Assembly: GCA_019232795.1 (NCBI GenBank)
Contig: JAFANH010000056.1
Span: forward strand, 1 to 64,000
Source: Burkholderiaceae bacterium
GTDB lineage: Bacteria > Pseudomonadota > Gammaproteobacteria > Burkholderiales > Burkholderiaceae_D
Direction of reading: 5' to 3'
DNA length: 64,000 nucleotides
Shown: piece after piece, positions 42,498 to 43,000 of the stretch
Numbering within the stretch: the first letter of the stretch is position 1
Layout: every line of letters begins with the position of its first letter
Translations under genes and position numbers: made by a program
Notes under the pieces: generated by a model
The model's database searches: none
Seen by the model: only the letters and a program-made list of their open reading frames with translations
What the model was told of the DNA's origin: nothing

Positions 42498-42576
42498 CAC
42501 TTGGGATTTCTGGGCGGTAGGATAGCATAGTTTAGATGGCGTAGGTGCTAGCTTAGCCCCTGTATTCAATGCTTGA

Positions 42577-42755
42577 AATCATTCGCGTTGGCGAATGATT
42601 TGTGGGGCCATCAGATGCGAGTCCGGCTTTGCCGGATTCGCATGAATTGCGGAGTGGACGGACTCGCCGACATTCTGCCGGCCGCGGAATCGCTGGTAAG
42701 CGATTCCCTTCGAGTCCCGCCGGGAGCTGCGCAGGCGGCTCCCTCCACTTCGCCA
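42577..42755. other. nested inverted-repeat structured element next to tRNA-Asp
   Basis: Four hairpins are packed here with no gene. 42577-42600 is a perfect 10-bp stem with loop GTTG. 42615-42643 is a 13-bp stem with loop TTT. GCGGAGTGGA (42649-42658) pairs with TCCACTTCGC (42744-42753), enclosing GGACTCG/CGAGTCC (42660-42666 with 42711-42717), GGAATCGCT-GGTA-AGCGATTCC (42686-42707) and GGGAGC/GCTCCC (42722-42743). The result is a branched fold that ends at a terminator hairpin. Segments GCGGAGTGGACGGACTCG and TCCACTTCGCCA copy the tRNA-Asp 3' end almost exactly. It could be a structured RNA or a mobile repeat. Confidence 0.5.
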
Positions 42756-42758
42756 AAA

Positions 42759-42784
42759 AAAATGCCCGCTTGCGCGGGCATTTT
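42759..42784. terminator. bidirectional terminator after tRNA-Asp
   Basis: AAAATGCCCGC-TTGC-GCGGGCATTTT with T-tracts on both strands (TTTTCTCTTTTTTT on plus, T8 on minus). It can end the tRNA transcript and any plus-strand transcript of the structured element. Confidence 0.9.
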
Positions 42785-42793
42785 CTCTTTTTT

Positions 42794-42870
42794 TGGCGGA
42801 GTGGACGGGACTCGAACCCGCGACCCCCGGCGTGACAGGCCGGTATTCTAACCAACTGAACTACCACTCC
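42794..42870 (-). tRNA. tRNA-Asp (anticodon GTC)
   Basis: 77-nt cloverleaf with acceptor GGAGTGG/CCACTCC, D-arm AGTTCAGTTGGTT, anticodon loop CTGTCAC, T-arm CGGGTTCGAGTCCCG and encoded GCCA end. Just downstream of tRNA-Val on the same strand. Confidence 0.97.
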
Positions 42871-42924: not shown

Positions 42925-43000
42925 TGGTGGGTGCTGAGAGGCTCGAACTCCCGACCTACGCCTTGTAAGGGCGCCGCTCTACCAACTGAGCTAAGCACCC
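42925..43000 (-). tRNA. tRNA-Val (anticodon TAC)
   Basis: 76-nt cloverleaf with acceptor GGGTGCT/AGCACCC, D-arm AGCTCAGTTGGT, anticodon loop CTTACAA, T-arm GGGAGTTCGAGCCTCTC and encoded ACCA end. Lies between hupB and tRNA-Asp. Confidence 0.97.

Follow-up and report, generated by a model that had tools for sequence, protein, structure and literature searches.

The window analysed here, i.e. the whole stretch of 64 000 nucleotides, harbours on its minus strand a pair of tRNA genes identified by ARAGORN and Rfam, i.e. the upstream gene tRNA-Val(tac) (42925..43000) and tRNA-Asp(gtc) (42794..42870), followed by a unit of about 110 bp (42647..42755) that is matched to the latter. Along this strand, tRNA-Asp is succeeded by a terminator-like hairpin recognised from fold and sequence (42755..42784), a 5' arm (42744..42756), which is an inverted copy of the tRNA-Asp acceptor end, hairpin A (42722..42743), an inverted T-arm (42709..42719), i.e. 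the complement of the 3' strand of the tRNA T-arm, hairpin B (42686..42708), hairpin C with a nearly invariant G.U pair (42666..42682) and a tail (42648..42666), which repeats the tRNA-Asp 3' end in direct orientation, starting at C56 and lacking two bases in this copy. The 3' part of tRNA-Asp from T54 to A76 (42794..42816) is able to form a duplex with the two inverted arms (-35.4 kcal/mol). The relevant strand is the minus strand, i.e. that of tRNA-Val and tRNA-Asp, and not the plus strand. Hairpin A, the inverted T-arm and hairpins B and C correspond to helices 1 to 4 of a repeat family, helix 1 being covarying and helix 2 tailored to the local tRNA family-wide; the 5' arm was identified by arm matching, duplex and shuffle tests, the tail by tail comparison, and the whole unit by independent DNA matches in relatives as well as by models R1 and R2, among whose training rows the window unit itself was.

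An initial annotation had described this region as a chain of hairpins leading into a nested fold and a terminator working on both strands. All of its stems are present, i.e. the outer stem 42649-42658/42744-42753 (ten pairs on the plus strand, one of which is a G.T and a mismatch on the minus strand), the inner stem 42660-42666/42711-42717 and the inner hairpins 42686-42708 and 42722-42743, as are the direct and inverted pieces of the tRNA-Asp 3' end, while hairpin C, the fourth hairpin, had been overlooked. Since the terminator-like hairpin is palindromic, it could indeed act in both directions. On both strands, the region folds better than any of 200 shuffled versions (z -7.9 and -7.8), and the element is ordered and real, not a product of chance. 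Two further strong hairpins lie downstream of the unit in the window (42576-42601 and 42615-42643); judging from the matches listed for relatives, which start at 42649 or later, they fall outside the repeat family.

Further copies within the genome of the window adjoin another tRNA-Asp and a tRNA-Ser(tga), with three matches to model R2 in total. The tRNA-Ser(tga) locus lies on two contig ends (C8 and C81) and is apparently split by an assembly break inside the repeat unit. A DNA search of 40 genomes, including that of the window, matched 12, four of them (G007, G009, G016 and G022) over the terminator only. The first covariance model, built from an alignment of ten units, matched 185 of the 294 genomes of the window's family, that of the window among them, and left 109 without a match at the threshold used; 27 of 44 genera were represented, and individual genomes had up to 11 matches. 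A second model, built from 126 matches that had passed a score limit and came from 91 loci, matched 18 of the 349 genomes searched in the order, six of them in the window's family and several of the rest weakly, and in a class sample of 321 genomes it matched the window's own genome only; these large model searches were run with stricter filters, by which weak matches were lost. A pattern scan of named genomes yielded at least 120 stretches, 80 of them among the matches listed, where the carriers included Massilia, Herbaspirillum, Herminiimonas, Collimonas, Duganella, Burkholderia and Cupriavidus. Searching 56 loci with a model (51 from the pattern scan and five from the order search) gave a match in 54, and 61 of the 62 matches were kept. 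Pattern matches in an alphaproteobacterium (L173) and in Demequina (L182) had no model match and were taken as chance.

As far as can be told from the named carrier records, the carrier genomes belong to Burkholderiales, and in the genomes searched the repeat family appears to be found only there, in several families of the order. At gathering thresholds, Rfam detected nothing but tRNAs in the window and only tRNA in five further loci, and it is without this repeat family at these thresholds. Plasmid, phage and viral collections, each searched with one query or pattern, gave no match, and on these searches a phage, plasmid or viral origin was rejected. Among the matches listed in a literature search covering few subscription journals, no description of this repeat family was recognised. 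The Burkholderiales-1 motif may be the same family; its table line, on which this comparison is based, gives a weak RNA candidate from the same order with no Rfam number (Weinberg et al. 2010, PMC2864571).

Units were present in 119 of 120 loci searched. From the 117 and 66 matches given by the locus searches, 160 above 50 bits were kept, of which 144 have a tRNA upstream on their own strand; for the other 16 there was none in the fetched stretch, and for none of the 160 was there an opposite-strand tRNA within 400 bases. The nearest upstream same-strand tRNA was Asp in 93 cases, Ser(cga) in 24, Ser(gct) in 12, Ser(gga) in 11 and Arg(ccg) in four, with Glu(ttc), Leu(cag), Ser(tga), Thr(tgt) and SeC as additional partners at further loci. 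Apparent tmRNA partners scored weakly (32-36 bits); three such units (L287, L288 and L290, the last with a tmRNA recognised by eye) lie behind tmRNA-like 3' ends and carry an extra hairpin with an inverted T-arm copy. tRNA-Asp, suggested initially as a target, is only one of seven tRNA kinds found as partners, with tmRNA a likely eighth.

Every unit has hairpins A and B, usually joined by hairpin C. To these are added one arm whose sequence is complementary to the T-arm, often another for the acceptor end, and a tail that repeats the tRNA 3' end from T-loop base C56 onwards. The body takes up about 90 bp in compact units, as counted on L009, and ranges from about 90 to 150 bp. Among the listed units with a tRNA within 100 bases, the distance from the tRNA was 4-81 bases, and neither there nor in the window unit of about 110 bp is there space for a gene such as an integrase of its own. 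Variant units at Ser(gga)/Ser(tga) (L030, L295 and L296, in tandem in L295) seemingly lack hairpin C after hairpin B.

The tail agrees with the last 23 bases of the local tRNA at 19 or more positions in 111 of the 144 units with a tRNA and falls short of this in 33, i.e. 111 of 144 units end in the kind of direct repeat that marks the far side of tRNA-targeting integrative elements. Where 21 positions agree (86 tails), the two mismatches invariably fall on the T-loop TT, read as GG (83 tails) or GA (three). Some tails do not suit a mobile element, as 41 of 182 terminator-class units have a decayed tail. The same holds for the bases beyond CCA: among 16 compact rows, two have decayed tails, five repeat at least 18 bases (arrays), five extend the repeat by 4-8 bases beyond CCA (a direct repeat of 25-29 bp) and four repeat 0-3, so that four of the nine non-tandem compact units have zero or fewer than four repeated bases there.

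The inverted arms are tailored to the local tRNA. This was examined in 196 of 233 entries; identical bodies and units with no tRNA within 800 bases had been removed, and tmRNA units are not included. In 188 of 196 units, the inverted T-arm fits its own tRNA better than it fits other types on average, each type being represented by one drawn end; the same is true of the 5' (acceptor) arm in 153 of 182 terminator-class units. Across 182 units, the duplex with the own tRNA averages -32.0 kcal/mol vs -25.0 kcal/mol with other types and is the strongest of all types in 101; when tRNA ends were shuffled among 179 units, the observed pair counts were not reached in 300 shuffles. All these comparisons (fit, duplex and shuffles) ignore relatedness. 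No 5' arm match was seen in the 14 compact units (own 5.7, others 5.5 of 12) or in four Arg units (own 5.5, others 6.4 of 12). The 5' arm match was 9.1 of 12 in the 41 decayed-tail units vs 8.24 in 134 intact-tail units, with seven intermediate (p 0.006, uncorrected for relatedness or tRNA type). Since decayed-tail units retain the arm, the acceptor arm seems to answer to the tRNA rather than to the tail, and arm-tail pairing as its sole constraint was ruled out.

The hairpins themselves are upheld by compensatory changes. A MAFFT alignment of ten units has 33 pairs, 22 with two-sided changes. Among 119 distinct units, 96.3 % of cells are paired and 25 of the 33 pairs show two-sided changes, with 829 such changes vs 197 in shuffled rows, a covariation score of 0.590 vs 0.155 in shuffles and at most 47.7 % pairing in slid controls; the 119-row alignment was fitted to the structure, which flatters its numbers, a bias from which the ten-unit MAFFT alignment is free.

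The use of G.U pairs differs between the hairpins. Hairpins A (1.3 % sense, 0.6 % antisense) and B (0.5 % sense, 1.2 % antisense) have nearly no G.U and no clear strand bias. Terminator-bearing spacers have 5.2 % sense and 1.6 % antisense, and the tRNA-gene control has many G.U pairs with little strand bias (8.4 % sense, 7.0 % antisense), for which reason RNA is not cleanly recognised by strand bias alone. In hairpin C, G.U outnumbers A.C by 142 to 1 on the tRNA strand, mostly at one pair that is G.U in 112 of 119 rows. Considering that hairpins A and B are nearly without G.U and that hairpin C uses it on one strand, the former resemble DNA palindromes and the latter a strand-specific structure. 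The initial annotation had also offered a structured RNA on the plus strand ending at 42790; given that the upstream tRNA lies on the unit's own strand in 144 of 160 cases and that the G.U use of hairpin C is strand-specific, this was rejected as unsupported.

Evidence pointing towards movement comes from cores shared between tRNA types. The genome G160 has an Asp unit and, on the other strand of the same contig, an Arg unit whose core shares an identical block of 82 bases with it, outside which tail and 5' arm differ. In a second (G182), an Arg-tailed unit and the stretch behind tRNA-Arg, on two contig ends, come with an Asp-type 5' arm and terminator. These two cases suggest a copy or gene conversion from Asp to Arg, with the tail supplied by the target; conversion, if it was that, would speak against mobility. 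Because the T-arm complement of the Asp units in G160, G182 and G204 fits Arg better than Asp, this putative transfer may have run in either direction. A tree of 105 cores requires 20 changes of tRNA type, where the least possible is four and shuffling gives 40.3, on 68 columns and with many unsettled forks.

Furthermore, the spacer between two tRNA-Asp genes holds a unit in five genomes, and in other members of the same genus group it is 15 or 17 bases long and free of a unit; unit-free spacers of 42 and 92 bases occur as well. A precise pair of empty and occupied sites was not found among the loci compared. At the Arg locus the flanks are too diverged for such a comparison, and a pair at Ser(gga) was rejected as proof of precise insertion, inserted DNA being involved. 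Nor was a mobilising enzyme identified with the Y1 and integrase queries of this analysis. Both results count against a mobile element, as do the plasmid, phage and viral collections that gave no match to one query or pattern each. PF01797 (Y1, an IS200/605-like transposase) occurs in 272 of the 294 family genomes and is absent from G154, G072, G049 and G137, which have nine, seven, six and six model matches, respectively; a REP/RAYT mechanism as a requirement was rejected on this ground.

We tentatively regard the unit as a copy of a gene-less, hairpin-forming mobile repeat of Burkholderiales that would home to tRNA genes, and apparently also to those of tmRNA, at their 3' ends and be kept in place, a reading to which we give somewhat less than an even chance. 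It comes nearest to the proposal in the initial annotation of a mobile repeat with captured tRNA sequence or with tRNA-Asp as its target, and fits best with the other copies, the compensatory changes, the many tRNA types and the presence of one core at two of them. The body would move as a folded single strand or through template switching and land where a tRNA 3' end matches its arms, the target being duplicated from C56 through CCA and sometimes a few bases more. Because the 3' end is duplicated, the tRNA would remain whole. Arrays may later grow via recombination between repeats, and the core may be kept intact by purifying selection or by steady conversion between copies. It is tempting to speculate that a gene-less body of about 90 nt finds its site by pairing its arms with the 3' end of the tRNA gene, so that new arms would mean a new target. 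We consider such guidance improbable; if true, the T-loop of the tRNA would be interrupted by a folded insert, followed by a second, spare 3' half.

The strongest alternative, which we hold to be a real but lesser possibility, is a cis-acting element of tRNA operons that is useful to the host. Upon read-through of the terminator, the inverted arms would pair with the 3' part of the tRNA and form one long hairpin with the terminator, marking the transcript for cleavage or recycling; or else the palindromes would act at the DNA level, where strongly transcribed operons end. It follows closely behind the mobile repeat because the cores are conserved above the surrounding DNA, which suggests a job for the host and counts against mobility. 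Pairwise identity was determined for 43 loci in five sets: in Burkholderia, it is 0.92 in the core vs 0.58 upstream, 0.79 in the spacer and 0.63 downstream; in g19, 0.84 vs 0.62, 0.74 and 0.57; in g43, 0.89 vs 0.62, 0.61 and 0.48; in g5 (Asp only), 0.92 vs 0.71, 0.80 and 0.60; and in g45, 0.94 vs 0.90, 0.88 and 0.62, a small excess over upstream. The acceptor arm retained in units with a decayed tail and the strand-specific hairpin C are equally in its favour, as are the units between two tRNA-Asp genes, which probably lie within a shared transcript. A joint fold of tRNA, spacer and unit is more stable than the separate folds in five of six loci and uses the arms; the compact locus shows no such gain, and the joint fold in the window has the expected pairing for the acceptor arm alone, with hairpin A opened. 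However, 109 of the 294 family genomes are without a match at the threshold used, many units sit behind a terminator-like hairpin, hairpins A and B are without the G.U pairs seen in terminators and tRNA genes, and a host function in cis leaves unexplained both the direct copy of the tRNA end and the occurrence of one core at two tRNA types.

tRNA 3' ends are a main landing place for mobile DNA, and tyrosine integrases use tRNA T-loops and 3' ends. The units could be scars or decoys of genomic islands, i.e. tandem tRNA-end copies left by repeated tyrosine-integrase integration and loss, some of which now take islands instead of the tRNA. In agreement with this, the tails span the T-loop to CCA, like attachment sites, and in several relatives unrelated DNA lies directly behind tRNA-Ser(gga). 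In G155 and G176, where foreign-looking DNA separates the two, the unit lies about 16 kb and about 160 kb from tRNA-Ser(gga) and adjoins a truncated copy of its 3' end, and in G165 island-like DNA resembling that behind the G155 tRNA follows the tail of the unit. Integrase-like matches directly behind the tail occur in two loci (L072 and L117). An origin as island scars is nevertheless unlikely, as it leaves unexplained the covarying hairpins A, B and C common to the tRNA types, and three queries, integrase-like by eye, matched only four of 173 unit loci (L072, L117, L120 and L168) in a search of low sensitivity with short flanks, on which an integrase beside the units as a rule was rejected. 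Considering the DNA behind the tail in G165 and the matches in L072 and L117, tails may still be occasional landing sites. A trans-acting small RNA or sponge made from trailer sequence, comparable to the 3'ETS of E. coli leuZ, would suit the trailer position of the units but is very improbable, given the terminator-like hairpin ahead of most of them, hairpins A and B without G.U and an alignment without a long conserved unpaired stretch.

The mobile repeat favoured here resembles several known systems in part. REP/BIME sequences are gene-less, palindromic, multicopy chromosomal DNA at operon ends, associated with RAYT transposases, and share these traits with the present units; in contrast to them, the latter are bound and matched to tRNA ends, and Y1 transposase is missing in some match-rich genomes. 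The rtT repeats behind E. coli tyrT are likewise tandem units downstream of a tRNA, each with part of its 3' end, whereas the present family occurs at many tRNA types and in many genera and has tailored inverted arms and covarying hairpins. Tyrosine-recombinase integrative elements have attachment sites in the T-loop or 3' end of tRNA genes, according to passages in PMC9897764 and PMC2647930, citing Williams 2002. With these, the family shares a tRNA 3' end duplicated from the T-loop on the same strand and targets including Ser, Leu, Arg, SeC and tmRNA; unlike them, it has a body of only about 90-150 bp without gene space, conserved hairpins and arms complementary to the tRNA, and where a single core occurs at two tRNA types, each direct copy is that of the tRNA targeted.

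A gene-less element matched to tRNA and conserved like functional DNA would mean either that homing can proceed in a novel manner or that a component of tRNA operons has been overlooked. In addition, the units supply look-alike tRNA 3' ends beside the real ones, which matters for tRNA annotation and for the integration of islands.

Other putatively mobile DNA lies near individual units. At two Ser(gga) loci, the integrase-like stretches adjoining the tails are L072:1075-1269 and L117:1-588, and the inserted DNA that parts tRNA-Ser(gga) from its unit is represented by loci L305 and L096 (G155) and L306 and L112 (G176). Group II introns often insert behind hairpins, and an apparent group II intron reverse transcriptase, recognised by eye (L128:2-733), stops about 95 bases short of a unit whose tail is of the Ser type. 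In three genomes (L111, L146 and L207), the sequence TAATGC[CT]GTTCAGTT interrupts the terminator downstream of the unit, as would be expected of an insertion sequence with a preference for this hairpin.
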